64,000 nucleotides of DNA from Haliotis asinina (taxonomy: Eukaryota; Mollusca; Gastropoda; Lepetellida; Haliotidae): NCBI RefSeq assembly GCF_037392515.1, contig NC_090281.1:51748753-51812752 (forward strand), written 5' to 3'. Position 1 is the stretch's first letter, and the number at the start of each line of letters is the position of its first letter. Positions 253 through 64,000 of the stretch are shown in pieces. A program made the translations under genes and the position numbers. The notes under the pieces were generated by a model. That model saw only the letters and a list, made by a program, of their open reading frames with translations, did not search any database and was not told where the DNA came from.

Positions 253-2774
253 TGTGGAGCAGATTCCCTTGGTAGTGACAGACTGGGATGCTTCAACCTC
301 AGTATCAAGGGGCATGGGTGAGATGATGCTATTATGGGAGAATGTTAGTCAGAATAACACCACTGATTTGTGGTGACTGATAGGGGAGTGTTTCAGATCA
401 GTGTGGCACAACTGTTTACAACTGTTTCATGGAAAATGTAGATCGGCATGACAGTATGTGTTACTCTCAGGGTTCCCCTTGATGTGGAAAGCTGCAGTGT
501 TAAGTGAAAATACGCATGTAGAGCAAACTCAATATTGCTTCTGATGCAATAAAATCATTAATCAAAGCCACACAATTCAATATTAGGTAATAAATGTAAC
601 TGAATTGATTTCTGATTTCAAACTGATTCGAAAGTACACATGATAATTCTTTAGAATTCAGACTTAGAGGCATATGCATGACAAAAAAAAAGAAATTATT
701 AGTTGAAAATTTATTGTCTTTGTATATATTGAGTCTGTAACATTATGTATACATTTGTGTGTGAGTGCTGTAGTTTCAGTGTGTTTATGTTTCAGTGAGT
801 GTGTGACACTGTCTTACATTATGTATATCTTTAAGTGGGTCTGACACTGTTACACCATGTATATGTTTCAGTGAGTCACACACTAGGTTACGCTGTGCAT
901 ATGCCTCAGTGAGTCTGTGACACTATTTTTGTTTCAGTGTGTTTTTGAAACTGTTACACTGTGTATATGTTTCAGTGGGTCTTACACCATGCTGCACTGT
1001 GTATATGTTTCAGTGGGTCTTACACTATGCTGTACTGTGTACATGTTTCAGTGAGTCTGACACTATGCTGTACTGTGTACCTGTTTCAGTGAGTGTGTGA
1101 AGGTTGTCAAGGAGTATGGGCTGCCCATGATGGTCCTGGGAGGAGGGGGCTACACAAAGAGGAATGTGGCTCGATGCTGGACTCATGAAACAGCTGTTTT
1201 ACTAGATGACCAGATTTCTAACGAACTGCCTTACAATGGTAAGAATCAAAGGCGGAGGATCTTTTTAGGCACCAAGTTCATGAAAATTCTATGGAAGAAT
1301 ATCTCCTCTGTCTTACCAGATGTATATGTTAATGTCATGTTATTATGTTCACGAGCATAATAATGAATCGTCTGACCGTATGTGCTCCAGGTATGTTCAC
1401 GAGCATAGAAATGACTCTGTCATCCTGCTTTACAGAATACCTGGAATACTTCGCTCCAGATTTCTCCCTCCATCCAGACATTTCTACAAAACAGGAAAAC
1501 CTAAACACAAAACAGGTAGTGTATGAAGTCTTTTATCAGCACCTCTATATCACTGAACTACCCGTGAAGATTCGTCTTCAGCAACCCATGCTTGCCACAA
1601 AAGGTGACTATGCTTGTCGTAAGAGGCGACTAATGGGATTGGGAGGTATTGCTCACTTACTTGGTTGACACATGTCATCGGTTCCCAACTGCACTAATTG
1701 ATGCTTATGCTGTTGAACTTTGGATTGTCTGGTCCAGACTCGATTTTTTAAACAAAACAAAACTCACTCATCACTGAAGTGCTTTGACAGATGTATTTTG
1801 ATGATGAAGTAATAATGTACCTAATGTAACCAAATTGTTACTTGTAATCAAGTGAAATTTATTATTTTGTCATTTGGATTTTGAAAGTTTACCAGGACTG
1901 TGTCCAGTACATTTTAGCTATTGCATGCAAACTAAATGTGGCTTTTTGAGTCCGTTAATGTGATGATGTCTTGTCTGCAGTACCTGGACCACATACGTCA
2001 GACGATTCATGAAAACCTGAAGAACCTGATTCACGCCCCCAGTGTCCAGATGCAGGACATCCCGCCTGACCTCCTAAACCTGGAGAACATTGAGGAGCAG
2101 GACCCCGACATCAGGAACCACCAGGACGATGTGGACAAGAGGTGAGGAGATGGAAATTTTAATTATAATTATTGGTGCAGGAATTACAAGATACACTCGC
2201 TCATCCTAACACTACAGTGACCCTAGCTCCCATACACTAACATAGGCTTCAGATGGTCGTAGTGATGAAACTGCATACAGTTTCTTCAGACTTCCTTTGC
2301 TTATTGTTAGGAGGATTCTGCTAAATTTGTGAAGGTCCAGGGTAGAATAGACCTTCAGCAACCCATGCTTGCCACGAAAGGCAACTATGCTTGTTGTAAG
2401 AGGCGACTAACTGGATCGGGTGGTCAGGCTCAATGACTTGGTTGACACATGTCATCGGTTCCCATTTGACCAGATCAGTGTTCATGCTGTTGATGGCTGG
2501 ATTGTCTGGTCCAGACTCAATTACTTACAGACCGCTGCCATATAGCTGGAATATTGCTGAATGCGGCATAAAACTAAACTCACTCATTCTGCTAAATTCT
2601 TGGTTGCTAGTGTTACTGTCATTATTTTCTTCTCATATATTCCCATGTATCGTCCTTTCCAAACCAACAAATATACAGCAAGTGTTTCTCTTCTACAGGG
2701 TTGAGCCGGCCAATGAGTTTTATGATGGTGACAAAGACAATGACAAAGAGAACGATGGCTTCCTGGACGTGTGA
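253..2774 (+). CDS. HDAC3: Histone deacetylase 3, C-terminal five exons (5' end outside window)
   Basis: Zinc-dependent class I lysine deacetylase, catalytic subunit of the NCoR/SMRT corepressor complex in the nucleus. Exons 253-317, 1090-1238, 1436-1515, 1981-2141 and 2699-2774 join in frame (531 nt, 176 aa plus stop). The product begins [14 protein letters not shown], with the conserved zinc-ligand Asp region, runs through [15 protein letters not shown] (catalytic Tyr loop), [10 protein letters not shown], the HAPSVQM stretch, and ends with the acidic [16 protein letters not shown] tail. APNEFYDGDHDNDKES is the human HDAC3 ending, which separates it from HDAC1/2. All junctions are GT-AG. 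The middle of the linker before the tail ([18 protein letters not shown]) is more diverged than the rest. The first intron holds a junction-derived minisatellite (separate entry); introns 3 and 4 hold SINEs. No upstream exon was found in bases 1-252. The next gene, ERCC8, is convergent and about 8 kb away. Confidence 0.95.
772..1089 (+). repeat. Minisatellite built from the HDAC3 splice acceptor
   Basis: Diverged tandem copies of a unit of about 38 bp, each starting ATGTTTCAGTGAGT or close to it (for example near 787, 863, 902, 967, 1006, 1043). The last copy is the real acceptor CTGTTTCAG at 1081-1089 followed by exon bases TGAGTGTGTGA. The copy at 787-808 also contains TGAGTGTGTGA, so the unit includes about 11 exon bases. 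See findings. Confidence 0.85.
1560..1773 (+). mobile_element. SINE family A copy, 3' part shortened
   Basis: Starts with the family head (ACCCGTGAAG), continues with AACCCATGCTTGCC, GTAAGAGGCGACTAA and the tRNA-like box GTCATCGGTTCCCA, and ends AAAACTCACTCATC. The segment before the tail is missing relative to full copies. It lies in an HDAC3 intron, sense to the gene. Confidence 0.8.
2328..2585 (+). mobile_element. SINE family A, full length, with target-site duplication
   Basis: Best preserved copy of the roughly 260-bp family: head GTGAAGGTCCAGGGTAGAAT, central box GTCATCGGTTCCCA, then TCTGGTCCAGACTC, tail GGAATATTGCTGAATGCGGC and AAACTAAACTCACTC. It is flanked by 13-bp direct repeats ATTCTGCTAAATT at 2315-2327 and 2586-2598, which show LINE-assisted insertion. 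It lies in the last HDAC3 intron. Confidence 0.9.
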
Positions 2775-3635
2775 CCCAGGCACAAGTGACATCATCAACA
2801 TTGTTAGCTGACAGTAGCAGGCTACTGTCACATGCATTCACACATCTTCGCTAAAGGAGATCACTCTCATTTCACATTGATGGGCAAACAAATGAAGGAG
2901 AATTCTCTTAAAACATGCTGCCATAAGAAAACACCACCTCCATATCATGGCAGCTTGGTTCTTTCATAGCCACATCGTTATTGTGGCTTCATTCTTGTAG
3001 CACAGTGAGGTTAACCACACACATTGCACAACGATGACAAGAAATATTTCTTCCTAACATCATCTTGTCTCCAGATATAATTGCAAAAGAAGAAACTACC
3101 TTTTTCCAAAGGGGCCTGCTCTCAAGCTGACTGTCAGGCTGTTGAAATACACCTTTTGCTAAACTCGAATGTGATCCATCTGCAGTTACTGATCACCCTG
3201 CTAACCTTGTCCCTCTTCAGTATAAAACAAATTACTGTGTCCAGACTAAAACAAGGAGTGGACTCTACTGTAAGGAGTTGCTCCCCTTTGAACAATTACT
3301 GAATGTGTATTATGTCCTTCAAGCAAGTGTTTCTCGGTACCAGTAATTTTGACACAGTTGTATGTTGTATACAGTGTTGTATAGTTGTTGTCCTATAATT
3401 TGAGGGAAAATATTATTATTCACCATGACATATCATGTTTTGTGCGAAGAAGGCCTATGATCAAACTAGATAAAACACATGTTCATGCCAAAAGCTCTGG
3501 ATTGACCTTCTTGATGGATTATCTAGATGGTCTGGGGAAAGTTTTGTGCTGTGTTTGATAACCAGTACATCCTGGAATGGTCTCACATTTATTCCAGAGT
3601 TAAATAATTTAGACCACCCGCTAGTGACCAGGCCC

Positions 3636-3897
3636 CCATTTCTCAAAACAACTAAAGTTGTTACTCAAACTTCAAACTGAGTTTGACAATTTGAAACAAC
3701 TGAATTTTTAACTCAGCTGCATTTTCGAAATGAAAAAGCCCACAACAACTTATGTAATCTATCCACCAAACTCGAACTGTCTACTATGTTTAAGTATAAT
3801 ATCAATTCCAGTTTATTCAGGGAAATGCCTTTCCTCACATTTGAATAAAAACTGAAGTCAAAACTCAGTCTTAAGTTTGTTTCAAGAAATCAGCACC
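3636..3897. mobile_element. Possible degenerate MITE with imperfect inverted ends
   Basis: The left end CCATTTCTCAAAACAACTAA and the reverse complement of the right end (GATTTCTTGAAACAAACTTA) are similar, and both sides then carry an ACTGAGTTTGAC-like stretch. No clear target duplication was seen, so this is a weak call. Confidence 0.35.
3844..3849 (+). promoter_or_regulatory. Candidate poly(A) signal for HDAC3
   Basis: First AATAAA on the plus strand after the HDAC3 stop, giving a 3' UTR of about 1.1 kb. The only support is the motif; later AATAAA motifs exist, for example near 7297. Confidence 0.3.
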
Positions 3898-5104
3898 AGG
3901 TGAGAGAGAACAATCATAAGGAAGGCATTTTTGTACTTGTGCCATCTGACTCAAAAATTCATTTTGACCATCATCCAAGATATATTTTCTTGACAAGTTT
4001 ATCAGTAACTGATGTAAACAGGGGTGAAAGTACTTTATGACAATACATTCTGTCAAAGTCAGTGTAAGTTTGGAACCTAAGTTACCCTGACAAACACTGT
4101 TGGTAATAAGGTCAAAATGAAACAGGTCTGTTCAAACTGATATTTGTTTCACCTTGTCATATACGTATTCATTCTTTTAGTACGGCAAGTACAGATTCAT
4201 CTTTGGGTCAATTTACTGTTTGTGGTTACTCTAGAAATTCACTGGTGGTAATATTCTAATATTCACTGGTTCATTATAACTGTAGTTTAACATTAAAGAG
4301 ACTTCACAGTTATATTAAGTATAAATTACCAGTATTAATTTTCATCAAGATCTGTGAATATTTCAAAATTGAAAAAAGAAGGGGATATTGGATTTACAAG
4401 ATTGATACAAAGCAAATGATGAAGCAAGGGAGGAAACAGATGATGGAGAGAAATTAGGGATGTGACAACATAGTCCATTCCTTTAGAAATGTTTCATCTG
4501 TATGGATATATAATACCCTTTCACATATGCATTGGTATTGGTTGGTGGTATGCTCGCAAAAAGGAATATCCCTTACTTTTTTATGGTATAGTTTGAAGAC
4601 AAATTCCAATCATGTTGCATATGACCAATTTGAGTGTGCATGTGCTATATGACTTTATCAGTTTGAGGAATTATATTGGCAGCTTCAGTCATTTATCTAC
4701 ATTGTACATCATCAGTATCAACAAGTTTGTTGAACATTCATAGAGTCATGATGGGATGTGTAAATAACTTCAGAGTAGACAGTTCCTTTAGACCTGATTA
4801 TGAAGTAAATTCAAAGGTGCTATGATTCCCACCAATTATGTCATAAGATGATATTTCTTTTTAAATGGTGTACTACATCTGTCAATCCTTAATTTTCACT
4901 GTCTTATGTCATAGAAACCCATCACTGTCTAGTGGGTAAATGTGGTTTTAGTTAACTTGCATTCAGGAAGTGGTGCCCTAGAGTCTGATTTGCTTGGAGT
5001 TTTCATAGTTGTGATTAGCATTGTTTTTGTGTTATCTTAAGATTTCACATGGACTCTCAGGATATAGATACAACAAATAATGCACATTACGAATCCCAAA
5101 AGTC

Positions 5105-5252
5105 TTTGAGTGAGAGAGGTTTTATGTTGCATTTATCAATATTCCAGTGATATGATGTTTTGGGGACACCAGAAATGGGCTTCACACATTGAATCAAAAC
5201 AGGATCTTTAACAACCAAACACTTGAACCACTAGGCTACCCCACTGCCAAGG
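5105..5252 (-). mobile_element. SINE family B (tRNA-derived), degraded
   Basis: Read on the minus strand: GGGGTAGCCTAGTGGTTCAA (A-box-like head), a decayed B-box region, then GAAGCCCATTTCTGGTGTCC and an AATATTGATAAATGCAACAT tail. Family consensus from the other copies in this window. Confidence 0.75.
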
Positions 5253-6559
5253 TTTTGATTACGATGTGCATCACATAACTGGGCAGATTGTATTCATGTC
5301 AACTTATTTGTGATGAAACAACATTTCAGGGTGTAATATTATTTTTTATTTTATGAAGTAGGAATGTACTCCGTTTGTGTTCCTTATGGCAGATATGGTG
5401 ATGACCAATTTTCTCCAGTTCTTCCGAGTCTAAATTCTCTGAAGTGGTTAATACTAACAGAATTAGGAAATGGCACCAAGCCATCGACCAGATCCTGAAA
5501 ATCTTTGAGCCTTGACTCTAGGAAAGGTGTGGCTCTTCCCCACTGATTTGATCTTGCTGGTATGTTGCAAAAATCAGCATGAAACAATATTTATGCTGTC
5601 TCTCTCGCTCATACACACAGAGTCTTATCACCATCTTTACCGGAATACTAGAGAATCTGGTTTTGATAAGTATACTCTCGCCTCACCAAATATCCTTCCA
5701 TAAACATGTATATAAGTATCATGGAGTACAGGTCTTAGACATTCAGACTTCAGTAGCATCAGTTTATTGCCAAATATCCCTATGCAAACAGAAACATTGG
5801 TATACTTGGACAAAGAAATCAGAATATACCTCATAATCAGATCAATCCTGTTTGATACACCATGTTTTATACAGTTCACCTTATGCCACTGCCTACAAGA
5901 ATTTTGCTTTCTTAGTTCCTGTCAGGGACCCTCACCTTCAGGTGAAACTATGATGTTTCACAAATGAGAAAACCATATCGACACGTCTGTGAAATATTAA
6001 GTATTGCTATACAAGTCTCTGGTGTCCTGTTGCAAGCCCATTTCCAGTGTGCCTGATTGTGATATTACTAAATGAGGCGTGTAACCAAAATTCTCTTAAA
6101 AACTGGTAAGCCCAAATCTCTCAATTTAAAAAATAAACATAGAGATGAAGTTTGTTTGGAAGATTTTATTTACCATGATAACAAACATTTAATGCTTGTA
6201 AGGTATTGAAAGGTTTTGATGCTCTGTGGCCATTAGTCACATGCCCCTAAAAACCAAAACAGCCCACCCAATCATGAACACATGAAGGTATGGTCAGAGA
6301 GAGAATGGATGAAACTGCCCTCTGAAAATGGTGGATAGTTATTAGTTTTTTGGTCATTTTCAGTGAAAAAGAGATCATATTCTTATGATTTACCTGTTAC
6401 TTTACTTCTAACCTTTAACAAGATCTGACTTTACCTAGAATTACTTCTGGTATATTTTATTTATCTGAATATTACCAGTATTCTAAAGTACATGTTAGGA
6501 AGCAGAGAACTCAAGGTATACGTGGATTATGCAAGTAACTTTGGATTCTTACAAATGTA

Positions 6560-16900: not shown

Positions 16901-19900
16901 CTATGAAGTAGTCAGCATTATGTGTGTTCTGATTGGTTTGTCATATTTTTGCACATGACAAGCATTGAGAGGGGACGAGTTGGAGGTTATGGAAAGGGAC
17001 GAGTGGTGACGAATGGGTTGGTCAGTGACAACTGTCTACTTGAGAAGACATTGTTTGATACAAGTTGTGGTCAAGCGTGACGCTTAAACTGTTGGCTTGT
17101 TATGATGGCACCACCCTTTTATGCGACATCATGGCCACAGTTCCAGAGTTGCTTGTTGTAGTATGTTGTAACAAGGTGTGCCATTATGGTTCTGCTCATG
17201 ATGAGTTAGATATTAGAACACTGACTTGGGCATGTCTTGCTTCTGTGGAAGCCTGGACACAGCATACATACTACTGGCAAACAAGGATAAGTTGATGACT
17301 GACCTGACAATTGCTACATATTAGCATGTATGAGTGCTGCCCATTGGTGCTTGCCATTGTGAGTAAAGTGGCCCCTGATTGTCCAAACTCAAGTGTAGTT
17401 GCTACACTGACCACGTGAGAGTCTCTATGAGCAAGGTATGTGCAGCTTCATGCTTAATCAATTTCATCGTCATGCACTGCACATGCTCAAGCCTACATCT
17501 GCTCTCCCTTTCACTAAACAGATGTGTTTGCTCACTGCCATGCATCGCCTACTTCTCATGAACATGTTCTCTGTGCTTATCCAACTTATCCTTGCATACA
17601 CACTAATTTTTATGAGTGATGCAACACAAAACCAAACAATTCTTCTGATCATTAATTCTGAAATTCATCAGATAGTTGGTAGCTATATATTTTTAGGTTT
17701 ATGGCAACATAACAGAATTGCCTTGTTATCCAATCAAACGCCATGGATTAATTGCAATATGTATATTATTACCCATGGTGGAGTTACCACTGATCATTGA
17801 TGTCTGGTAACAAGTTCACCTTGTTGCCAGGTAACCTGTTGTAGAGACCCCCAATGGTGTCATCCTATGTTCGTGAAAATATTGTATCTTGTTCACCTTG
17901 ATGCCAGGTGACTCGGCGTGGTGCCGCCCCAGATGGTGGAGGGGAGGTTGTGTTGTGCTGCCCATGTCGTCAGAAGCTCCGACCCATACTGTTTACAGAG
18001 GCAGGCAAAGTGAAGCGGATCAGAGGTGTTGCGTATCCTTGACACAGAGAGTAACAATATTGAAAACAGATGCTGACCTGTTGTCTCCTAGCCAGTAATT
18101 TTTTAGCAGAGGAAAATTCTGTGAACAGAAAACATCAGTATAATATTTCAATAGTGTTGGGGTTTTTTTTTTGGTAAGTGTTTATGAAAATTGAAAAACT
18201 ACTGGCTTGATCATGGTTGTTGGCCAGGATTGCTAACTTACATGTTTGAGAAACTTAACTATCATCAGGTGGGCGACAAGAGTATCACCTTCCATCACCA
18301 ACAGGATTGTGGAGTCAACACGAGGGGTGCTCAACCAGTTCCTGCCAGATATCTACATCTACACAGACCACAGGAAGGGTGGACAATCGGGAAAGTAGGT
18401 CACATTTTGCTATAGCTAGTGATCATTGTCAGGAAAGTGGGTTACACCTGGTTGCAGCTCATAATCGTCAGGAAAGTAGGGCACACCTGGCTATAGCTGG
18501 TAATCCTGAGTGTGGAAAGTAGGGCACACCTGGATACAGTTGGTAATCATTATCAGCAAAGTAGGTCATGTCTGGCCTGGGTATTGCTGATAATTATCAG
18601 GAAGTAGGTCACATCTGGTACTCAGTCAGGAAGGTAGGTCACATCTGGTAATCATGGCCAGGAAAGTAGCTCACATCTGTCTATTACTGTAATCATTATC
18701 AGGAAATAGGTCACATCTGGCTAAAGCTTGTAATCATTGTCAGGAAAGTAGGTTACATTTGGCAATAGCAGGTAATCATTGTCAGGAAAGTAGGCGACAC
18801 CTAGCAATAGCTTGTTATCAGTATCAGGTTGGGAGGGCAAAGCTGGCAGTAGCTGGTTATCTTATTATAAAAGTAAGCTGAAGCTGACAATCACCGGTAA
18901 TCATGTGGAAAGTAGGCCACACCTGGTAATGACTGGAAAATAGACCACGATTGGCAACTGCTGGTATGTGTCCTTAGCACATGCATGCATACATATAGCA
19001 CCACAACCGCTGTGTATTATTGTATGTATCAATGTATACTGAAGACATTAATAGAGCATCAGGATCTTGTTATGCTTGTGTTATCATTGCATTCACTATG
19101 TCTTTCTGCTGTGTAGAAAAGGACATAGCATGTCAGAATAGGCATAATAGTCATGGCATTTTAAACAAGAAGAACTTTGAAAACAAACAGACTTCAGATG
19201 AAGTAAGCAGTGAACCGTAGAAAGACAGAGGGTTCTGTACAAAATATATTAAACCATACTATCAGAGATAGGAGTCTGCGGTGTACTAGAATGCAAGGCT
19301 GACTATGAGTATCCAGTTTCACTGTGATATAGCTGAAATAATGTTACATGTCTAATTAACTAAGTAATGTATTGATTAAGAGCCCTCTCATCATCCTGAA
19401 GCCCTGGGTCTATTTCTCAGCATGCTAGTATTGCAAGCATTCATACTAAGGCCATACTTGCTCATTCATTGAAGTCGGTGTTCAACCCAGCTAACAAACT
19501 TCCACAATTCCAGATCCCCAGGCTTTGGACTGACTCTGGTAGCTGAAACTCTGAATGGGGCGTTCCTGTGTGCAGAGTCCACCTCCAATGAGAAAGGATC
19601 AACAGAGGGTCCAACAGTGCCGGAAGACCTCGGCAGAAACACGGCTAAACTCCTCCTAGAGGAGATATACAGGGTGAGCTGATACGGATCTCACTGTTGT
19701 CAATAATGTCATGTGTACCTCTCAGATTCACACCCCATGGGGAGTCCAACTTAACACTAACTGATCAACTGATCAAGTATGGTTTTATGGTGCTTTTAGC
19801 AATTTTTCAGCAATATCATGGCGGGGGACACCAGAAATGGGCTACACTTATTGTACCCATGTTGGAAATCAAACCTGGTCTTTGGCATGACGAGTGAATG

Positions 19901-24569: not shown

Positions 24570-27500
24570 TCACAAAGAGATTGTTGTGTATGGGAACTGA
24601 GCAAGTCCTTGTTTAAAGTGAGGTATGTCTGTGATGAAGGTCATCCCATTAACCTTAGGCTGCAGGAACACCAGAGCTTGTGCTTCCTTCTCATGCACAT
24701 CCGGCTCACCTTCCCCGCCCTTGTTTTCTACGGGTACATCACTACTGTCTGTCTTCCCTTCAACCTGGAATAGTTCAGAATATTGGTTTGAGTTGTATCA
24801 GCAACACTGTAATATTCTGTAGCAAATGTAATGCATCGTATTCTATATTGAAGCAATCTGTGACAAAAAGTCTATCATCCCCAACTTTGCACTTCTATCA
24901 CCCAGAATCATTCTGAGTACATTTGAGTGTTATTTGGATTTCAATGGTTGATCTCATTAGACTGAACATATTGTTACTAGACTTGGGCTTAGAATTAGTG
25001 GCCAGTGTCACAGAATGTGAATCTGTGGGATTAGGTCTGAAAGGTTTAACAAGTAACTAGCAGCTACACTAAATGCAGACTTGTCACCACTGGGGATTGG
25101 TTCTGACCCATGCAAGTCACACTGAAGGTATCCCTATTGTGTATGCACTAGTAGCTACACTAAATGCAGACTTGTTACCACTGGGGATTGGTTCTGACCC
25201 ATGCAAGTCACACTGAAGGTATCCCTATTGTGTATGCACTAGCAGCTACACTAAATGCAGACTTGTCACCACTGGGGATTGGTTCTGACCCATGCAAGTC
25301 ACACTGAAGGTATCCCTATTGTGTATGCACTAGCAGCTACACTAAATGCAGACTTGTCACCACTGGGGATTGGTTCTGACCCATGCAAGTCACACTGACG
25401 GTATCCCTATTGTGTATGCACTAGTAGCTACACTAAATGCAGACTTGTCACCACTGGGGATTGGTTCTGACCCATGCAAGTCACACTGACGGTATCCCTA
25501 TTGTGTATGCACTAGTAACTACACTAAATGCAGACTTGTCACCACTGGGGATTGGTTCTGACCCATGCAAGTCACACTGACGGTATCCCTATTGTGTATG
25601 CACTAGTAGCTACACTAAATGCAGACTTGTTACCACTGGGGATTGGTTCTGACCCATGCAAGTCACACTGACGGTATCCCTATTGTGTATGCACTAGTAG
25701 CTAGTTCGATAGTAGTCTTCCATCTCTAGAGTACCTATTTATTATTATGGTTTGTTTCATACTCTAAGCACTTGACCCATGAAGGTCCAGGGTAGAATAG
25801 GCCTCTAGTAACCCATGCTTGTCATAAAAGGTGACTATGCTTGTCGTAAGAGGCAGCTAACGTGATCGGGTGGTCAGGCTCACTGACTTGGGTGACACGT
25901 CATCGGTTCACAGTTGTGCAGATTGATGCTCTTGCTCTTGATCACTGGACTGTCTGGTCCAGACTTGATTATTTACAGACTGCCGCCATATAGCGGGAAC
26001 ATTGCTGAGTGCAGCATAAAACCAAACTCGCTCCCTTACTCTAAGCACTTTCTATTGTGAATGACTGTCATAACGAGAACCACCTGACCTACCTGCAAGC
26101 TGAGTTTCCTCTGTCTGTCATCAATATACTGGTTATACCACTCCTTGAGTTCATCTTGAGTTACAGTCTGCAGTATTGCAATCTGTCAACACATTGGCAT
26201 ATCTCAAGCCATGTCATACATGCTGGTCAACTCACATATTCATATAAATGCTTGACACTGAAGGTCAGGGTTATGCCTTACCACAGATTGCCATGATTTC
26301 TTTATAAGATATAGATCACAGTCATGATGAGGTATAAATATGATAATACTTCGTGTATTGTCCATCTTATCAGAAGTTAATATAATGAAATGTGTGGAGC
26401 ATATATTGAAGTATTCATGAAACATTTCCAAGGGGAGACAACCATCAACAATAATCAGTGGACCACTACTTGGACAGTTACAGACCATGTTGTCTACATT
26501 GACAGACCCACCTCCTTTTCCAGCACATCAAACACATACGACTTGTCATGGATCTCCCGCCAGAGTCGAGTCGCCTCCTCCCCAAGATGTGTGTCCTCAA
26601 TCATCTTGTTTGTAATCAGGGAATCAACCTAATAGACACATAGTGTTTTAGATGGTTGTTCAGCTATCGTATGTCAAACTCCATTTTGTTCATATTTCAA
26701 ATTCAGTGTTATTTCCTTTAGGTTTACAAGGCAGCATGGAAGCTGTTACCAACAATAAGTATCAGAAGGAAATCAACATACTGTGGGAATCCGTCATGTC
26801 ATGTCAGCTGGACCAGAGTTTGTGAGTGAGTGAGTGAGTGAGTGAGTTGGGTTCAGAAGTGCTTTGAACAGTATTATAATTACAGTATGTCAGGTTGATG
26901 TTGGAGGAAAGCCTTAAGTGATGTGGGTATCAGACATTTAGCACTGTCGAGAAATCTGTGATCACAGGTATGCTGCTTAGACACCTTAAAACAAAAACCA
27001 GGATGAGCCCACAATCCAAGTTCCTGACATCGCCAAGGGACACAACTCTACATAGGAGGAAAACTTGAAGGGAGGCAGGTCAGGGAAGTTTTGTGAAACC
27101 CACAAGTGTATGTATGGTGCTGACAAATGAAGGGTGAATGACAGATTAAAATCCTGACAATACAATTCAGCATGTCTCGCCTTGGACGATTGGACCCCTT
27201 GTCTGAATATCTGCAATGTGCCAGTGCTTTGTTTATATGCCATCTTGTGCAGTTAAATAACTTAGATATGTTTAGATAGTCAAGCTGGAAAGTCTCACCA
27301 AGCTGTCAAACTCTTCCTCAGTCATTGCATGAAGAATTCCTTGGAATTCCCCAAGAAAGTCTGCCATCAGCTTCTGCACATCATTCATGCTGAAATGAAA
27401 TAGCTGACGTAAATACTGAAGCTCCAATAACAAAAAATATCTCTCTCTATCCTGTGGATCTATGAGATACCTGGTTAAATGTATATAGCTGTGATATCAA

Positions 27501-33500: not shown

Positions 33501-36500
33501 GAAAGATAAACCTCTCAAAGACATATGCCAGCTTCAGTTTACATAAAATAACCAACCATAAAAACAAATCATTCCAAGAGGTGATTTCAAACATAATTCT
33601 GAGTTTCAAAAGTATTTTCTTTCATATATTCTGTTCAAATGAAGATCATCCATTACTTACAATGACGACAGTCAGTCTCTCATGCCATGACAGAAACTGA
33701 CAGTTCTCTAACATCTGTCGAGCTACATAATACTAGTTTGACTGACTCTTATACTAAATTACCCTTCTGATAAAAGTCAAGAAATGTGAAATGAAATTTG
33801 AGGACTTACATGATTCAGTAACAGTTTGGTACAGAATACAACAGAATGTGCAAGATGAGTACAGAATACAACAGAATGTGCAAGATGAGTACAGAATACA
33901 ACAGAATGTGCAAGATGAGTACAGAATACAACAGAATGTGCAAGATGAGAACAGAATACAAAAAGAGTACAGTTGTACATTTAAGTAGATTTGTGTCTGG
34001 ATTAATTGCAACATAGAAATAGTCTCAATAACCTAAAACATATGAATACATACCTATATAAATATTTGGTTCAGGAAAAAACAATTCTGGATTTTCTTTC
34101 AGATCTGAAAATATAATTGCATTATTTTAAAAAATATACATGTACCATGAAAAAGACGCCAAAGATCACAGACTATACCCATTCCTAACAAAAGAGAACA
34201 ATTGTTTGTTAGTCAGTTTGGCAATAAGCGGGATATCGAGCTTGGCATGAGCAGACCTCATACATTTTCACTTTCCATTACATTTTACAGGAAGACTGAT
34301 GATACTTACTTTCCCATGTCTTTCTCCATTCAGAATCAACTTCTGTAAACAAATAAATATGTTTTAATAGCTCATCCTTGGAAAAAAAATCAAACACTGA
34401 ATTACCTGCCAGATTGTATACAAAACCTCCACATTGTACACATGTTCTGCACCACCCACCTGTTATACTATACAACCACCAGCTACACTCTACACACCTA
34501 AAATACACTACACTTGCTATACTGTACACACCTGCTATACTATACAGTCATCTACTATACTGTACATCCACCTGCTATACTGTACACCTGCTATACTGTA
34601 TCCTTACTGGTTATACTGTGGTCCCATCTACTGTACTGTACCCACACCTGCTATACTGTACATCCACCAGTTATAATGTACCCTTACCTGCTATATTGTA
34701 CACCAACCTGCTGTACTGTACCCATTCCTATTATATTCTACCCACATCTGCTATAGTGTACCCTTACCTGCAATACTGTACACCCACCTTCTATACTGTA
34801 CACCCATCTGCTATACTGTACAAGCACCTGCTATACTGTACCCAAACCTGCTACATAGCACATGCATAGCACACCAACCTGTTAAATTGTATATACAGCC
34901 ACATTGCATGTCTCCCCTGCTACACTGTACCACAACGTAGTACACACACTTATTCCCCCTGTGTTAGACTGTACACCCACCTGTTACATTGTACTTGGTG
35001 TTGTACCATTCCTCCTCACAGTCAGTTTCACCTATGGCAGACTTGTCTGTAGACAGCAGGACAAAGTTTGCCTTGTCTGGTCCAAGATGTTTTGTGCAGT
35101 CACTAATCAACTGAAACAAATCTCTGTCATTTCAAAAGATAATCCAGATAATCCATTCAAAACATTTCATTTCATAACATGATCCACTTATCATCAGAAA
35201 CAATTTATTCTTTATATAATATACAGTGAAGCCTGCCTACACTGTCACCCCATGGAACCAAAATATGCTGTGATGCTTATTTTCCAACATGGCTGCCATT
35301 TGCAACCTTCAATCTCTATCTCTGTAATGCCTTTGATCTTGTACACAACAAATCATGCAACAAAACATGCTCATAGAAATGAATAAAGGAACACAGGAAA
35401 GTTCAAGTGCTTCTATACTCATTTCCAGGTTTCTTGTCATGCTTTAGATTGCACAGTGGGTGAAAAGATAAATAGAGAAACACTTGTACATGTCTTCAGT
35501 TATTCCTTTCCCTAGTAAATGCCCTCCTACCTCAGAGAGTATGTCAGTGTAATCTGTCACTAACCTGTGGGTCATACTCAAACAGCAGGTTCTTGCCAGT
35601 GAGGTAGTGCTCCGGTGTGTATGTCTGCATGCTCTCGGCTATCTCTTGAACATCTTCCATTGGCTCCCCCTATAAACATGTACCTGCATTAAAGTTTTGT
35701 TTAGACAAAAATAGTGGTCTAGAGAAATTCTTGCAATGAGTGAGTGAGGATGGGTTTATGTTGCCTTTTGCAATATTCCAGCAGAAATCACCTTACATCA
35801 GGGTATACCATAATGGGCTTTGACAAATGCTTTAACAACTAGGCTACCCTATGTCCCTCCAAAAAGACAATGATCCCCCAAAGAAGCTCAAAAACACCAA
35901 ATTCATTTCACCAAAGCCATTGAAGATTATACACTATAATATGAAAGAATCCGATGTTCTATGACTTCTTTTGAGGTGCAAATGTCTACATGAAATCCTG
36001 CTAATGAGATAAGTAGGAAACTCTTTACACCATGTTTGTGCTGATAGTCTGTCTGAATTATCCTTTATCTTTTCTTAACCCTTTGTCCTTAGGTCAGTGA
36101 AAACACCCATCTTCCTTCCGTCCAAACTATCTACTATCTGATGAAAAGGTTCCAAGGAAAACTATGTATCAAAACCTTCCAATCCTATAGATCCCAGCAC
36201 CCCATTCCTCAGATTCTAATACCTGGCACCATCGGGTCCTGTAACACTCACCTCTTCCTTCCATCTGAACTTGCAGTCCTCAATCTGTTGCAGTTCCTGG
36301 AACAATCTCTGCTGAGGGCCTTGGTTTTGTAGCATTAGGATGTACTCAAAGACTGCACTGCACACCTGAAACCAAATACAGTGCTATGCACAATAAAGAA
36401 GTTGACATCTGTAAATCATGCTTTTCTTAAGCAATTATCTGATGTGGAGTGGAAATCAGTTCAAACAGAAAATTGTTACTAGATCCCCTGAATCACAAAA

Positions 36501-42500: not shown

Positions 42501-45500
42501 AACAACTGTTTATCCTTCCGGATAACAGCAGTTCGTTTGATATACGCTCTGAGAGTCTTACGGACATCTAAGATGTGAGCACATCAAAGAGAGGTACCGG
42601 ACGAGGGAGGCTGCATCAGCATAGGTAGCTCGATAGGTGCTGTAACATGAAAAGCGATCTTAGGTCAGTAAGAATCCGGCAGTCTAATACTGACCCTGTC
42701 TTTGTGAAAGACGGTCGGGGCAGGATCTGCTGACATTGTGTCAATGTCGCTAACCCGCCTGCCGGACGTCACCGCCACAAGAAAGGCAGCCTTCCATGTT
42801 AACAGCTGGAGAGAAAGAGACGACAGCTGGTGAAAAAAAGGACCGGACAGCCAGTCAAGGATGACTGACAAGTCCCACGGGGGACTAATCCGCCAGATAG
42901 TTGGACGGATCCTATCAACACCTGCTAGAAAGCGCTGCACAAGAGGGTGCTGTCCCATGAGAGCACCGTCAACAGGAATATGAAACGCCGAAATGGCTGT
43001 GGAATAGCCCCGGATAGTGGACGCACCTAGACCTGACTCTAAGTGGGACTGCAAAAGTTCCAGCACTTCAACTAGAGTTGAAGAAAAGGGATCGAGAATC
43101 CCTCTGTCGGCACACCAGCGAGCATAACATGCCCATTTATCCTCATATTGAACGTTTGTCGAATACCTCCGAATCTGAATCCTGGGGTTTCGGGTGCAGA
43201 GCTCCTTTCTGGGACAGTAAGTCCGGTTGAAAGGGCAATAGGACAGGAAGCAGAGTCAGAAACCTTATTATTACCGGGAACCAGCCTTGACACAACCAAA
43301 GCTGTGCAAGGAACACAAGTAGTCGAGCTGGTTGGGTGGCAAGCTGCAAGAGGACCCTGGAAATAAGCGGTAGAGGCGGGAACACCCACAGTACCCTTCC
43401 CGTCCAATCGAGTTGGAAAGCTTCTCGGGCGATGACCCTCGGATCCGGTATCAGAGAGCAAAACACCGGAATCTGGTTCATCCACTCAGAGGCAAACAGA
43501 TCCACCTGGAATGACCCGAACAACTAGGAGATAATCCCGAATATCTCCCGATGCAACATCCACTCATGTGGGGCCAGGACACGTTGAGAGAGCGCGTCTG
43601 CTCGAACATTATCCACCCCCGGGAGATAGACGGGACACACCCGAACATTGAACCAGTCACACCACAGTAGAAACTGCCACGCCTCCTCGAGTAGGGACGG
43701 AGATACCGTACCGCCCTGTTTCAGGATATAGGTCATTGCTGTCTGGTTGTCCATTTCCAGACGCACTACACAGCCGCGAACCATCTCCCGAAAATGTTGG
43801 AACACTAGCTGGACAGCTCTCAATTAGAGCACATTGATGTGCAGGCGCATTTCGTGCTGTAGTAATTGACCCAAAACAGACTGAACGCCCAGTCCGCCCC
43901 CCCACCCTGTGAGGGAAGTGTCTGTCTGAATTGAGAGATTTGGTGAGGGAGCATCCAGGGGCAAGCCCTTGGATAGATTCCCTACCACCGTCCACCACCG
44001 TAAATGAGGAAGTAACCACTCCAGAGTGTGGGGAATAATCTCGTAACTCTGGGCATGGGACCACATCTGCACCAAGGCATACTGAATGGGTCGCATCCTC
44101 AACTGCGCTCTCCAAACAATGTCTACCGTCGCTGCCATGTTGCCTAGCAACTGGAGCCAAACCCGAGCCGAAGCCAAGGGGGACTCCAGAAATTGTAAAA
44201 CAACTCTCTTAACTTTGGAGATCCGATCCGGAGACAGGGAGACTAAGCCTCTCGCTGTGTCGAACCATGCGCCTAAGAAGACCAGGTCCTGTGTAGGAAC
44301 TAGGTCTGACTTCTTGAGATTGATAATCCAGCCCAACCTGGTGAGAATACACATCACCCCGAATGTTGCATCTCGACTCAAGTGAACGGCAAGTGCCCGT
44401 AAGAGCCAATCGTCCAGGTATGGGTGGCAACACCTGCCCTGTGACCTGGCCACTTGCGCTGGGATTTACATAAGTTTGGTGAACACCCTCAGAGCTGTAG
44501 CGATGCCGAAGGGAAGCACCCGAAACTGATAGCATACCCCGTTGAAGGAAAACCGAAGGTACTTCCAGAACTTGGGATGCATCGGAACGTGCAGGTATGC
44601 ATCCTTGAGGTCGATGGACGTGAGCCAATCGACTCTTTCTACAGATGAGATCACCGACCGTAGTGTCTCCATCTTGAATGAAGGTACCTGCAGCATATTG
44701 TTCAGGCCTTTCAGATTTAGAATAGGCCTGAACCCTCCGTCCTTCTTGGTGACCAGGAAATAAGTGGAATAAAATCCCTCTTGTTCCTGTCCCCTCAGAA
44801 CCACCTTGATGGCCGCCTTGTCCAGTAAAGACTGGACCTTGGCACGGAGAACCTCGGCTATCTCTGGAATCTACGTATCCCGGAAAAGGGAGGTGGGTCT
44901 CGTTTCCACTGTGGTAAGTGGCCGTCTCTGAGTGTGGACAGGATCCAGGGAATGGAAGTCACCTTTTCCCATTCTGACCGGAATCGAGAAAGGCGGCCAC
45001 CCAAAGGTATATCTGGCAGGAGACTATGAATCCCCGACTTCAGCAGTACTCCGACTGCTTGATTCGGGTTCACTTGCAGGGGCTCCAGAGGACAGCTTAC
45101 TGGGAAGCTGGGGCCGACTTCCCCTTCATCAGAAGAGGCTGCTGGGGCGCCGCAGCTTGCCCTTGCCCCTACCCTTACCCTTACCCTTTTGGGTAACCAC
45201 GCAAACTTGCAACATTTCATGAAAAAGAATGCCTTATGAATTCCTAATAACACCCGTGCGTTAAAAAAGGAACCATACATACAGATGTGGTAGCTTTCTC
45301 ACTCATTTCTCTTCAGAATCGTAAGCTTTCACACTAGTATGAGAGCTTCTTAGAATGGACAACTGTCCTCTACGACGACAGCATGAAAAGTGAGGTACGA
45401 GGTAGACGGCGAGAGTTGACCTGCTCTTGGCTGTTGGGGGGCCCAGGTAGGGGCCCTGTAGGGGTGGTCTCACAAGACAAAAATGAGTTTTTGTTTGGTA

Positions 45501-57564: not shown

Positions 57565-57596
<32 letters not shown>

Positions 57597-57757: not shown

Positions 57758-57790
57758 AACCTCACTCACTCACTCACTCACTCACTCAGG
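57758..57790. repeat. (CACT)n run
   Basis: Eight CACT units preceded by GATATTGCTCAAAGCAATGT, so this is the expanded tail of a mostly lost SINE. Confidence 0.8.
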
Positions 57791-58470
57791 GCACACTTGC
57801 ACACTTGCATCATGGAAATGCTATAATTACAGATCCTTGACAGACTGATCTGTACCATGAGATTCAATGATGGTTCACTTTAATGAATATATGCAAGAAA
57901 CAACTTGTAACCAAGGTAACAATTTACTGAACATATGACGATTGATTTCTATGTATAGCTGTAATTACAGTGTGAACACAGTGTATATCAACAGTAACTT
58001 CAAATGCTGGTTTTTGTCACATCACAAGCCACAAAGTGGGACAGGAGGTATTTCAACAGAGTTGTCTATCTTCCATTGTATTTGTTCTGTTCTCAGTGGG
58101 ACAAATGTTCTCAAGATGAAGAACGGTAATTGTTCACATTAGTGGCACTGGCATAAAATGACTTGCAGAGAACACACTTACTTTGTTTATCTGCTGTCAA
58201 CAGCAAAATCTTGTTTCTAACTGCATACCATTATGCAATCTATTGATTTTCACTATTACCAGGTCACAAAAAACTTTGGATGTTTTTCCACTTTACAAAT
58301 ATATGCCATTCTCTACAGTATGTAAATAATGGATGTTACATATTCATTAAGCATATCTGGGACATACACCACATGGGTAAGAAGTGTTTTGCTTTTATAA
58401 TGAACAGTATTTCAAGAATAATGGTCAGCAGTTGACATAACTGCATTATAAAATTTGAGTAAACTTGTGA

Positions 58471-58585
58471 GTGGATATGGCTTCACGCCGCTTTTTGCAA
58501 TGTTATAGCAGTAACATGTCAGGGGGGCGTCAGAAATGGGCTCCACACATTGTAGCCAACAGGGAAACTGAACCCAGGCCCGCCC
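58471..58585 (-). mobile_element. SINE family B, shortened
   Basis: Minus strand: GGGCCTGGGTTCAGTTTCCC, GTGTGGAGCCCATTTCTGA, then ACATGTTACTGCTATAACAT and AAAAGCGGCGTGAAGCC. It lacks the A-box end. Confidence 0.75.
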
Positions 58586-58604
58586 CTTGTGTAAACTAAT
58601 CATG

Positions 58605-58955
58605 TTACATCAGGTGGGTGGGTATGGTAGTGTAGGTGTGGCATCATGTGAGTGGGAGTGGCTGTGTAGACATGTCTGGGTGTGGCATCATGTGAGTGGG
58701 AGTGGCTGTGTAGACATGTCTGGGTGTGGCATCATGTGAGTGGGAGTGGCTGTGTAGACATGTCTGGGTGTGGCATCATGTGAGTGGGAGTGGCTGCGTA
58801 GGCATGTCTGGGTGTGGCATCAGGTGAGTGGGTGTGGCAGTGTAGGTGTGGCATCATGTGAGTGGGAGTGGCTGTGTAGACATGTCTGGGTGTGGCATCA
58901 GGTGAGTGGCAGTGGCTGTGTAGACATGTCTGGGTGTGGCATCAGGTGAGTCGAT
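58605..58955 (+). repeat. Inverted sister array of the RNF14-like donor minisatellite
   Basis: About seven units of roughly 46 bp with TGGGTGTGGCATCATGTGAG or GGCATCAGGTGAGT and GGCTGTGTAGACATGTC. The core GGCATCAGGTGAGT equals the splice junction at 61974 on the minus strand, but here it stands on the plus strand, 550 bp beyond the gene's stop. See findings. Confidence 0.85.
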
Positions 58956-59399
58956 TTTTACATGGTTATCAGTAAAAGGTAAAATATTTATTGGAAACTG
59001 TGTTATGAACTATCTCCCAAGTATGTGATGTGACAAAATTATTCAGTATGTCCAGATAAACACAACAGGAGTAAGAAGCATTCAGATTTGCATAAATTTC
59101 ATTACATACTGAATATGTATTTGTCGAAACATGGTGTAAACATCTATCAACATGTATCAGTAATTAATATCTATACTGAACGGCAAAAAACCCACAATTT
59201 TAAAAATAATGAAGTCTCATAAAAGTAAGCATTCATGTTTATGTCTTCTGTTTGAAAATTAGACAAAAAGCCAGAGTTGCATTTCTTTTACTGTTCAGTA
59301 TATTATCACAGTTTTTGGTTTTAAATATACTAGGAGTAAAGATTTTTAAATGTACAATAAATATTTTCTGACTCCACCTATCCACTTAAAACATATATA

Positions 59400-59405
59400 T
59401 TTATT
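59400..59405 (-). promoter_or_regulatory. Candidate poly(A) signal of the RNF14-like gene
   Basis: Minus-strand AATAAA about 100 bases after the stop at 59505. Confidence 0.5.
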
Positions 59406-59504
59406 TGTGAATGTTCTTGACGTTTATCACTTTGAACATGAATCCAAAATTAAGTTGCCATGGACTCAGTCACTCACTCGCTCCATATAGGAGAGGAATT
59501 TCTG

Positions 59505-62500
59505 TTAGGAGTGTTGCTCACACAAACCGGCGGTAAAGTGTGCTGTTACTGTTCCCAGAATTCTTTTTTTGCACAGGAAGCAGAAATTTGATTTGCAACC
59601 CCAACACTTAATGTGATTATTTCTCTGGTTTTTCAAATTCCTTTGACCACAAGTTGGACAAGCACAGACAAGTTTCCGGGCATCAGGATTTACTTGCAAT
59701 GTTGCCTCTATCAGCAAGACAGCCTGAAATATCAAAATACATTTAGTGAGGTTTTAAAGCATCTAATCAGAATAAACATGGTACACAACTGTCAGTGGGA
59801 CTATCATGTCGATTATTCTCCATTCCTATGATACATCAAACTTACTATTCATGTCATCAGTAACCATGGTAACATCGTTCCACACAATATAAACATGCAT
59901 TAATCAAGGTAGCAAGTCTGACCAACCAATCCTAATAGTAGGTTATTTAAAAAAGCAATTCTAACTTGGATGTTCAAGAGAATTAATTTGCTAAACTGCT
60001 ACAGATACCTGGTAAGCCTGGTTTTGCAATTTGCTCTGAGTAGGCAGGAGCAGACATCATTATCATTAGTTTAGTGAACAACATACATGTGATAGACAGG
60101 GTACAATCAACATGGCAATGGGGATGGGATAGTTTCAACCAGACCACCAAGAAGCCTGAACCAGTATATTTGTGGAACTTACGTCTGGTAATTCCTTTGC
60201 TGGTGTTACAACCCTCATCTGTGTGTCAGACAGTCCACATGAACCACTATAAAAATGGTCATATCCTGTTATCGATTTCCCACACAGCCAGCAGAAGGAC
60301 TTTCCACAGCGGCACGTCATCTTGTTACACCTTCAGGAGGGAGAGTTGCATCAGCACAGGACACCACACAAATAAAGGACATTTAGGATTGTTTGTATGA
60401 CTGCTTGTACTTCTAAGGACTTTTTGACAGTTCTAGCTTGAGCTTAATTTAACCGACGTAACACAGACTCTATGTTCACACTCCAATCCAGCTGTAATTA
60501 TATGATTACATGGCTGGGGAAAAGTACTGTTTTGAATCTCTTTTGGTATGAGAAGTCACTGATCAAAGCTATGATCGTCTGCTCCCAAGGCAGACGCTCC
60601 ATTTAACAGATCAACATTGGAGGTCACAAACATCTTAACCACAGGCTTAATATATCTCTGTGCAGCATATTTTAGCTTCTGTATGGAACCTTTTGATGTA
60701 AACCTAGATACCCAAAACTTCATGTGATCATATGAGACCAGGCCACTCTCTGACATGCCTGGACGTGTAATTCAAGGACATAACTCTATACCATTGATGC
60801 ACTTATACAGGAAGTCATCAATGTGGATTCTTTTAGGGTTAACATTGTAGGTCAACATAAATTTGGTTTAACAACCTATATTCTTACCCCGCAATCTTTT
60901 CAATAGGTACCCTGCAACTTGGACATACTCTTGATTTTTTAACCATCTCTAACTTTGTTTTGAGCTCTTCAGCCAATTTCCTTTTGATTGCCTCCAATCT
61001 CTGACGATCAACATCATTAGCACTCGGGGCCTTTCTCTCCATTGCATCTAGCTTCTCCTCTGCACTTTGGCATGGTTCTCCCTGAAATTGTCATCACAAT
61101 GGATAATGGTTTGAAATGCTGGTTATAGGAAATAGTTTGTTGTTCATGTCACTCCTTCAAACCAATCCACCTTCGACGGCTTCACTACTAGCAATACCCA
61201 ACCACTCAGCTGATGCCATACCCACCTACCCAATGTCATGCACAGCCACACCAACACAGCCATGTGAACCCTACCCACTCGCCTGATGTGATGCATTCAA
61301 GTCCAGTCCTTCACCTGATGCCACACCTAAACAGCCACACACATTCACCTGATGCCACACCTGCACAGCCAGACACACACTCACCTGATGCTGCACGGCA
61401 ACACCCACTCACCTGATGCCACACCTACACAGCCACACACACACTCAACAGATTCCACACATACACAGCCATACACACTCACCTGATGCCACACCTACAC
61501 AGCCATGCCCAGTCAAATGATACCACACCTACACAGCTACACCTCAGGCCACACCTACACAGCCACACACACACTCACCTGATGCCACACAGCCACACCC
61601 ATTCACCTGATGCCACACCTACACAGCCACACACACATTCACTTGATGCCACACAGCCACAACACACTCACCTGATTCCACACCTACACAGCCATAAACA
61701 CACACTCACCTGATGTCACACACCCACTCACCTGATGCCACACCTACACAGCCTCACCCACTCACCTGATGCCACACAGCCACACCCACTCACCTGATGC
61801 CACACCTACACCCACTCACCTGATGCCACACCTACACCCACACACCTGATGCCACACCTACACAGCCACATGCACACACTCATCTGATGTCACACAGCCA
61901 CACCCACTCACCTGATTCCACACTGCTACACCCACTCACCTGATTCCACACTTACACAGCTACACACACTCACCTGATGCCAAGGGTCCCTGCACAAGGT
62001 ACAGAAGGAAAAGAAGCAGGTCGTGCAGTGCCCTAAATTCAAATGGTCCTCCTCTTCTCGAATCACAGGGTTGTTGCATCTGGGGCACCACTCCACATCA
62101 CTCATACTCTCCAAAGTTTTCTGAAAATACCACAGTCAGAATCAACTCCTGGGCAATACACTCCTCTTCTTAGGAATGATACAGATAATAATTTCCCATG
62201 TGCATGTGTGAAACAATTAAAGCAAGGCTAGGTACTTTTTAAAGCGGTTTTGCTTGATGAAAATGTATGATTCCTTGCTCCACTGATCTACCACTTAAGT
62301 GTACGAACATTTCCAAATGATTGTTCAAGTTGTGCAGAGCTTAAGAAATACTTTACATTCCTTTATATAAATCAGTGAGCTACATCATCAGTTTTACAGA
62401 CAGCTACAACATAGAAGCAACAGTACTTGTATACCATCACAATTATGATAAGCATGGGTACAGCTTGTAAACGACAAACCTGTAGAAGCAGTCTCTCCCA

Positions 62501-63278
62501 TCTATCAAACTCATCAGCAGGTAGGACACTCTGTATGATGTGGGGAGGAACAAAAGCATCACAGTCTGTGTCAGGACACCTGGAAATAAAGCACTGTGAC
62601 AGTCATTGGCAATTATCAGAAAGAGTTTAAAATATTGAGCTCCAGTATGACAAAGTCGAGGTAGCAGCATAAGAAGCTCCTAAATTAGAATTACTGCCCT
62701 AATGTTAGCATATAAACATGACAGAGTTCAGGATGGGATTATTTCTATAAAGCTTGCTGTACCTATATCAATATATGGCTACAAGTTATCACCCAGGACA
62801 ATATAGCCACCAATGGTGACAACCACAAGTGGTTTGGGATCCATCTTATTTTTAAAAAAACCCAGTGAATTGGGTTTTTGCAGCTTTGAATGGCATTCCA
62901 ATATTATGGCAGGGGACACCAGTGATGGGTTTCTGTGACATTCTGTGCTGATGTGGAATTAAACTTGGGTTTTCAGCATGATGAGCAAATAGTCTCTAAT
63001 CACCTGACTTGGGCTACAAACACACACACCCCACCCTCAACCCCCACCTCACAGTGGGAAGAGGAAACACTTGTTGACATCATGTATGCTCCAACCTGAG
63101 ATTTTCTACAGTTCCCAAGGTGACATGATGTTCACAGTATGCTGTCATGCAGTCTCTGCAGTAATGATGCTCACAATCCTTCATTCGGTAAAACTGATTC
63201 CCTGGCAATTCTTCATAACAAACATGGCACTCGTGGTTGGAACGGTAAAATTCTATGTCTGTTTGAACTTGATTGAAT
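59505..63278 (-). CDS. RNF14: RNF14-like RBR E3 ubiquitin ligase, 3' six exons (5' end beyond window)
   Basis: RING-between-RING ligase passing ubiquitin through a catalytic Cys. Exons in order: 63096-63278, 62480-62579, 61974-62120, 60888-61081, 60183-60330, 59505-59723 (991 nt, about 329 aa). RING1: [27 protein letters not shown], then [41 protein letters not shown]. Helical linker [19 protein letters not shown]2: [33 protein letters not shown]; the Cys after AG is the presumed catalytic one and is the first full codon of exon 60183-60330. Human RNF14 ends shortly after RING2; here a further Cys-rich module follows ([35 protein letters not shown]). The RWD domain should lie upstream of 64000. 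RNF14 is the closest match by linker and RING2; orthology is inferred. Confidence 0.87.
61205..61973 (-). repeat. Minisatellite built from an RNF14-like splice donor
   Basis: On the minus strand the exon ends TTGGCATCAG (61974) and the intron starts GTGAGTGTGTGTAGC. The next 770 bp repeat GGCATCAGGTGAGTGGGTGT with short CACAC/TGTGTAGG spacers, about 20 copies of the CATCAG-GTGAGT junction with small changes. See findings. Confidence 0.9.
62860..63020 (-). mobile_element. SINE family B, decayed
   Basis: Minus strand: TTTGTAGCCCAAGTCAGGTG, AACCCAAGTTTAATTCCAC, CATCACTGGTGTCCCC, TGCCATAATATTGGAATGCC. Intron between exons 63096-63278 and 62480-62579. Confidence 0.7.
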
Positions 63279-63499
63279 CTGAAAATATACAATTACTTTT
63301 CATATTTTTAAAAATGATACCTATATTACTTGAAATAAATATCAGACCCATACTTCATTGAAAATAAGTATCATTTCATACTTGCACAAATCACTCCATA
63401 GGAAAATGTTGAGCAGGATCACAAGTTTCCCCACAGATTCTCATTCAGGTACATTCATAATCTAGAACCTTGATGCTGTAATATGAACTGTAACAAATT

Positions 63500-64000
63500 C
63501 AGACACTGTCACAGTATGCACTCAATAACAACATGGACACTGCCTGCACTAGGGCTGTATAATCAGGAAGTGCTGTTATACTCACTGTAACAATGCGGAC
63601 ACTATATATTATAAACACTGTAACAATATGGGCACTGTATGTTATACTCACTGCAACAATGTGGATACTGTGTGTTAATATTGTCATACTCCTAGTAACA
63701 ATATGGACACTGTATGTTATACTCACTGCAACAATGTGGACACTGTTTGTTTTCTCCCTGTAACAATGTGGACACTGTAAGTTACACTCACTGTGACAAT
63801 GTGGACACTGAATGTTATACTCACTGTAACAATGTGGACAATGTATGTGATACTGTAACAATGTGGACACTGTATGCCTTGTAGTCATTGTAAAAGAGTG
63901 GACACTGTATATTACACTCACTGTAACAATGTTGACACACTGTATACTCATTGTGGCAATGTGGACACTGTAAAATACACTCACTGTAACATTGTAGACA
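63500..64000. repeat. Minisatellite with CAATGTGGACACTGTATGTT unit, runs off the window
   Basis: About 13 diverged units of roughly 30-36 bp; plus-strand core TCACTGTAACAATGTGGACA, minus-strand core TGTCCACATTGTTACAGTGA. It lies in the intron upstream of the RING1 exon and is unfinished at 64000. The long minus-strand open frame through it (Cys-Pro-His-Cys-like) is a by-product. Confidence 0.9.

Follow-up and report, generated by a model that had tools for sequence, protein, structure and literature searches.

Tandem arrays whose repeat unit copies the neighbouring exon-intron junction, exon bases included, recur in introns of the abalone Haliotis asinina, a gastropod. The stretch analyzed here (the window) comprises 64,000 nucleotides of contig C2 (C2:51748753-51812752; assembly of 1.143 Gb in 159 contigs), and an earlier reading of its sequence, hereafter the original prediction, had reported four such arrays, in the genes HDAC3, RCL1, NRDC and RNF14. 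The junction arrays are real, recurrent and of an already described kind, the mirages of amphioxus. New, as far as we have seen, are the phylum, the local density of the arrays, a genome-wide excess of the donor pattern, and an exon homogenised together with its array. The arrays are probably born by tandem duplication of a segment spanning the junction, tolerated since the exon-proximal site works, and subject thereafter to minisatellite turnover.

Splice junctions as repeat units

Array boundaries and periods were taken from Tandem Repeats Finder (TRF) rows together with a listing of the copies, and exons were identified by homology; coordinates outside the window are relative to its position 1, with negative values upstream. 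For each candidate array, the 24-mer formed by the 12 exon and 12 intron bases of the junction was compared with its best intronic copy and with 300 dinucleotide shuffles of the intron. Seven of eight candidates passed, with best copies matching 19-24 of the 24 bases and 0/300 shuffles as good in each; five involve donors and two acceptors, so that both 5′ and 3′ exon boundaries are represented. All four arrays of the original prediction are among them (Table 1), and its count of three donors and one acceptor was correct. The 5-14 exon bases that it had assigned to each unit agree with the best copies, which match 11, 5, 6 and 9 boundary-adjacent bases (HDAC3, RCL1, NRDC and RNF14, respectively, with at most one mismatch). 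Its statement that each array touches an exon holds for HDAC3, RCL1 and RNF14, and less well for NRDC, the weakest case because the main TRF row (34511-34853) stops 128 bp before the exon end at 34981, the gap being bridged by degenerate copies only. Its tally of four was incomplete: two relevant arrays in the window, the inverted RNF14-unit array and the second RNF14 array of Table 1, had been left uncounted, and two further junction arrays lie just beyond the window, in HDAC3 (-1711..-1338) and in a tandem RNF14 paralog (79228-80435). The eighth candidate, a 51-bp array at -77734..-77255 in an intron of a lipase-like gene (named from a reading of the exon), was rejected, with a best copy of 13/24 and 254/300 shuffles as good.

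Table 1. Junction arrays and adjoining exons in the window. A slash marks the exon-intron boundary; scores give the matches of the best intronic copy to the junction 24-mer and the shuffles as good.
Feature	Position	Strand	Basis
HDAC3 acceptor junction array	754..1094	+	TRF row 784-1094; best copy 20/24, 0/300 shuffles
HDAC3 exon adjoining array	1090..1238	+	match to PDB 4a69
RCL1 exon adjoining array	18267..18394, start approximate	+	match to PDB 7mq8
RCL1 donor junction array, unit ~42 bp, CAGGAAA/GTAGGTCACA	18390..18950	+	19/24, 0/300 shuffles
NRDC donor junction array, 20-bp unit GTACAGTATAGCAG/GTGGGTGTACA, degenerate near exon	34404..34985	-	20/24, 0/300 shuffles
NRDC exon, ends ..AAGTACAATGTAACAG/GTGGGTG	34981..35110	-	boundaries read from sequence
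Inverted array of RNF14 junction unit, GTGTGGCATCA(G or T)GTGAGTG, no exon attached	58635..58951	+	~560 bp 3′ of RNF14 stop
RNF14 donor junction array, variable unit, TGTGGCATCAG/GTGAGTG	61200..61982	-	21/24, 0/300 shuffles
RNF14 exon adjoining array, ends ..CCCTTGGCATCAG/GTGAGTG	61974..62121	-	homology to P0121 (H. cracherodii)
Second RNF14 donor junction array, 33/66-bp unit TGTCCACATTGTTACA/GTGAGTATAACATACAG	63576..64000, on to 65087	-	21/24, 0/300 shuffles

The two HDAC3 arrays multiply acceptors. At the authentic exon, which starts at 1090 with the boundary ..CTGTTTCAG/TGAGTGTGTGAAG, copies bearing TTTCAG/TGAGT lie about 38 bp apart near the exon, and the farthest is found 336 bp upstream. 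The other array encloses the acceptor of a second HDAC3 exon, located upstream of the window, with copies at 43, 86, 129, 169, 212 and 255 bp. The AG dinucleotide is kept in 5/6 and 9/13 copies of the two arrays, and 1/6 and 4/13 have scores no more than 1 bit below the authentic one.

Among the donors, the RCL1 boundary reads ..CAATCGGGAAA/GTAGGTCAC, the exon ending at 18394; GT is kept in 10/13 copies, and 9/13 score within 1 bit of the authentic donor or better. The NRDC exon belongs to the insulin-degrading-enzyme family, with an alignment running through EEWYNTKYNV; its array keeps GT in 16/21 copies, and 5/21 reach that score. The boundary of the array-bearing RNF14 exon (..WHQ/G..) is consistent with protein models from two other abalones, H. 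cracherodii and H. rubra (P0121, P0122). At the right end of the window, a splice-like unit (TTACAGTGAGTATA) without an exon inside the window was noted first, and its adjoining donor was then found outside: this second RNF14 array, cut by the window end, reaches the donor of the preceding RNF14 exon (last base 65072, boundary ..TCAACAATGTTACA/GTGAGTATAG). In the paralog, about 18 kb away, the homologous donor lies in an array with a 38-bp unit and 96% matches. This array is young, and GGGACCCTTGGCATCAG/GTGAGTG is free of mismatches in 22 of the 24 copies listed, the authentic one counted. In the RNF14, second RNF14 and paralog arrays, GT is kept in 20/26, 28/44 and 32/33 copies, and 12/26, 26/44 and 28/33, respectively, score within 1 bit of the authentic donor or better. 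The RNF14 unit also forms the inverted array of Table 1, which lies some 2.4 kb away from the junction array and may reflect an ectopic inverted transfer.

Direction, turnover and exon homogenisation

The residues WHQ at the end of the array-bearing RNF14 exon occur in 9 of 13 homologs (two Haliotis, Patella, Aplysia, Biomphalaria, Bulinus, Physella, Lottia and the annelid Owenia) and are absent from those of Antedon, Lingula, Branchiostoma and Corticium, whereas the HDAC3 exon has the same residues as PDB 4a69. Since these residues are conserved far outside abalone, in both genes the exon predates its array, and copying went from the junction into the intron rather than the other way round.

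Evidence of turnover comes from C7:50041000-50129999, where most of the region (9.5-88 kb of window coordinates) is repeated colinearly on the reverse strand; this copy may be a misplaced haplotype or a recent duplication. Five of the six aligned segments of at least 800 bases are 99.1-99.85% identical between the two contigs, and the sixth, which contains the paralog array, is 96.8% identical. The RCL1, NRDC and 61.3-kb RNF14 arrays have the same length in both, and two of the five arrays compared differ by whole units: the second RNF14 array (at 65 kb) by 66 bp, or two units, and the paralog array by 228 bp, or six units, in steps of 152 and 76. By these whole-unit differences, the lengths of the younger arrays continue to change. 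The C7 copy also has a 14.3-kb insertion near window position 32.7 kb and a 176-bp deletion at 62227.

The array-bearing exons of the two RNF14 paralogs (61974-62121 and 80431-80578, both on the minus strand of C2) are identical at 144 of 148 bases (97%), whereas two other exons compared at equal length share 73/99 and 100/145 bases (69-74%), and four more show 50-73% identity in rough global alignments with approximate ends. At the protein level, 48 of 49 residues are identical in the array-bearing exon, compared with 41-79% in five others. The DNA similarity starts at the start of the exon and extends into the array, while the intron upstream of this exon gives no alignment between the paralogs. 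Even strong constraint would be insufficient by itself, because silent sites would not stay identical under it, and the pattern suggests gene conversion of the exon together with its array as the simplest reading. A more tentative proposal, which we regard as possible but doubtful, is that an exon copy frozen by selection keeps re-seeding the array, which in turn makes a conversion hotspot of that exon; exons with arrays would then co-evolve between paralogs as the rest of the gene diverges.

Frequency of junction arrays

The local frequency was estimated over 94 kb, from -10 kb to +84 kb, taking all arrays with periods of 20 bp or more and no fewer than 2.5 copies, and merging overlapping rows. 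Seven of the 15 arrays in this set lie on junctions, when 0.34, 0.60 and 1.01 would be expected within 10 bp for 100, 180 and 300 junctions, respectively; these numbers were assumed without annotation, and the window itself had been selected for its junction arrays. With this reservation, the probability of seven or more is 1.5e-8, 8.2e-7 and 2.4e-5, and that of five or more, at 180 junctions, 2.2e-4. In the 30 kb of flank alone, two of five arrays fall on junctions (P = 0.016 to 0.043). Codon bias is weak (0.16 bits per codon). The claim that four cases in 64 kb look more than accidental is borne out, with the assumed junction numbers and the pre-selected window in mind.

At the genome-wide level, three successive CAGGTRAGT motifs spaced by 11-40 bases gave 494+210 = 704 matches, against 48+37 = 85 for the reversed motif. 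These are matches to a pattern rather than arrays, whether or not an exon adjoins; at least 30 of them come from the two RNF14 arrays on C2, and others may stem from their counterparts on C7. The matches listed fall into about 19 separate donor arrays, located on C1 and within the first 72 Mb of C2. The proposed recurrent class, with duplication apparently seeded at junctions, is supported both by the cases just beyond the window and by this excess of the donor pattern.

Origin of the arrays

The most probable history of these arrays begins with a short segment spanning an exon-intron junction that would be duplicated in tandem, all extra copies lying on the intron side. This first duplication may be seeded by microhomology, provided by the splice consensus or by cryptic sites. 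The exon-proximal copy would still be spliced, the others being removed with the intron, and the duplication would cost little because that copy goes on working. The array would then expand, contract and homogenise through unequal exchange and gene conversion, presumably as a neutral sequence, and the exon copy, kept constant by purifying selection, could go on serving as a template to an array that would otherwise decay. What the sequence itself shows of this history are the junction-spanning units, the exon-to-array direction in RNF14 and HDAC3, the whole-unit differences in length and the closed frames past the donors.

Several observations weigh against this reading. Identity to the junction declines with distance from the exon in six of the seven arrays, with a nominal p<0.05 in two, and since only these two declines are nominally significant the idea of the exon copy as template is weak. 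The RCL1 copies have preserved their donor side much better than their exon side (0.85 vs 0.61). The reversed motif is the sole control for the genome-wide donor count, which covers matches regardless of an adjoining exon. Furthermore, kinesin exons were sampled solely on the basis of homology, taking 40 from the first 41 among 128 matches (C9:2976242 was excluded for its four internal stops); they showed no clear junction array at any of 70 sides (40 acceptor and 30 donor), within flanks of 160 bp that longer units would escape and with some boundaries uncertain, the family model ending near the exon end; the 95% upper limit is 4.2%. TRF gave eight rows in seven of these 40 fragments, two of them near an exon end. 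Both of the latter were scored negative, the junction not being clearly present: one at C14:2005597, somewhat ambiguous, starting 37 bp past the donor, and another at C9:2976936, starting 45 bp past the model match. Since none of the 70 kinesin sides carries one, the rate of junction arrays is low or uneven, and the class probably recurs at a few per cent of junctions at most, perhaps with an uneven distribution.

These kinesin data also bear on whether the arrays are simply common minisatellites, a few of which happen to abut exons, in a window noticed because it is extreme. The choice of the window and the assumed junction counts leave some room for this, and so does the absence from the kinesin sides: the difference between 0/70 and the seven cases of the region has p = 0.042 if 100 junctions are assumed and 0.20 if 180 are. 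We nevertheless hold it unlikely, in view of the local excess, of the additional cases just outside the window and of the genome-wide excess of donor triples; moreover, chance adjacency would not place exon codons inside the repeat unit.

Retention by selection of extra sites that would buffer the real one, compete with it or give alternative transcripts is quite unlikely. Many copies do keep the splice dinucleotide, some are as strong as the authentic site or nearly so, and the donor side of RCL1 is the better preserved one. A precedent would be the human gene IFI6 (6-16), whose minisatellite, with a donor-like unit of 12 bp at an exon end, reportedly provides multiple splice donors according to Turri et al. 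in 1995; judging by the title of that paper, the extra donors are used there. In abalone, by contrast, the reading frame past the authentic donor meets a stop after 1 (RCL1), 14 (NRDC), 45 (RNF14), 1 (second RNF14) and 21 nt (paralog), which in all five donor arrays would make the internal donors unproductive. As many as 104 of the 106 internal copies that keep GT are located past the in-frame stop, and the remaining two, 34 and 20 nt on, cause a frameshift, so that internal donors would yield truncated or frameshifted messages, and none of the five arrays would give usable coding transcripts of the IFI6 type. In the arrays other than RCL1, preservation of the exon and intron sides agrees within 0.07; the copies of the two RNF14 arrays and of the paralog array preserve exon and intron portions to a similar degree (0.80/0.85, 0.84/0.84 and 0.93/0.91), as homogenisation would give. 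As far as the frames of the five donor arrays tell, there is no good sign of function for the extra copies, and the suggestion of the original prediction that they are kept as buffers or for alternative transcripts finds no support.

Another reading, which we hold very unlikely, sees the arrays as remnants of the birth or remodelling of introns, the duplicated junctions supplying material for new introns or for exon ends that shift. Their anatomy is that of the amphioxus globin structures for which such a model was proposed (PMC3087553), and they multiply AG and GT sites. Intron gain through tandem duplication of exon sequence containing AGGT (PMC4974935) likewise multiplies splice sites; in abalone, however, an existing junction is multiplied within its intron, neither a new intron position nor a captured exon turned up (no systematic search was made), and the RNF14 boundary is the same in two other Haliotis. 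Finally, units made of dispersed mobile repeats with splice-like sequence by chance are hardly credible, since, despite the inverted RNF14-unit array 3′ of the gene and weak matches to the RNF14 array on other contigs, the best candidates listed outside the C2 region and its C7 copy are 65-78% identical, and each array bears exon bases of its own gene, conserved coding sequence in the case of HDAC3 and RNF14.

Other features of the region

The window also contains the gene DOHH, whose exons match a deoxyhypusine hydroxylase-like protein of Haliotis asinina (P0001) except where alignments overrun the exon ends. A GC-richer stretch at 42665-44958 of the minus strand has open frames whose translations, read by eye, resemble a reverse transcriptase and a recombinase; we take it to be, perhaps, a DIRS-like retrotransposon. 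Pieces at 1582, 2359, 2544, 10694, 25809, 25992, 31643, 31851 and 32021 are presumably parts of a dispersed SINE-like repeat known from vetigastropods. A 91-bp array (25056-25703, 98% matches) is about 544 bp, or six units, shorter in the C7 copy, and upstream of the window, at -63403..-31364 on C2, a 73-bp satellite forms a 32-kb array of 435 copies with 90% matches.

Relation to mirages and implications

The original prediction knew of no described class of this kind. Such arrays had, however, been named mirages in the amphioxus gene Adh3 (Canestro et al. 2002, as cited in PMC3087553), were also found in the globin genes BflGb6 and BflGb9 (PMC3087553), and were extended to PGBD5, with a mention of troponin C (PMC3902484); in the portions available of the two latter sources, they are reported not to disturb splicing. 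The shared feature is a tandem repeat unit that spans the exon-intron boundary, and somatic length variation has been reported for the Adh3 mirage. The abalone case differs in its host, a gastropod mollusc, in the density of seven cases in 94 kb, in the genome-wide excess of the donor pattern, and in the array-bearing RNF14 exon, sharply conserved between paralogs. Another intronic minisatellite is known from abalone, a polymorphic 27-bp repeat in intron 3 of a TSSK1-like gene of Haliotis discus hannai whose copy number differs among individuals, and it is not described as junction-spanning in the excerpts of that report (PMC6905558). Among the literature matches listed for abalone and for the term, in which subscription journals are thinly covered, there was no mollusc report of mirage-type repeats.

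In the literature found, as far as its excerpts go, mirages are treated as a phenomenon of amphioxus. Their occurrence in abalone, several of them in a single gene neighbourhood and with an excess of donor-array patterns across the genome, suggests that minisatellites may quite generally be born at splice junctions where invertebrate genomes are large, and the question of how they are seeded can thereby be tested wherever a mollusc genome has been annotated. Were exons with arrays also hotspots of conversion, a neighbouring repeat could shape coding sequence, and the RNF14 pair would be the first example of paralog exons evolving in concert through an adjoining array.

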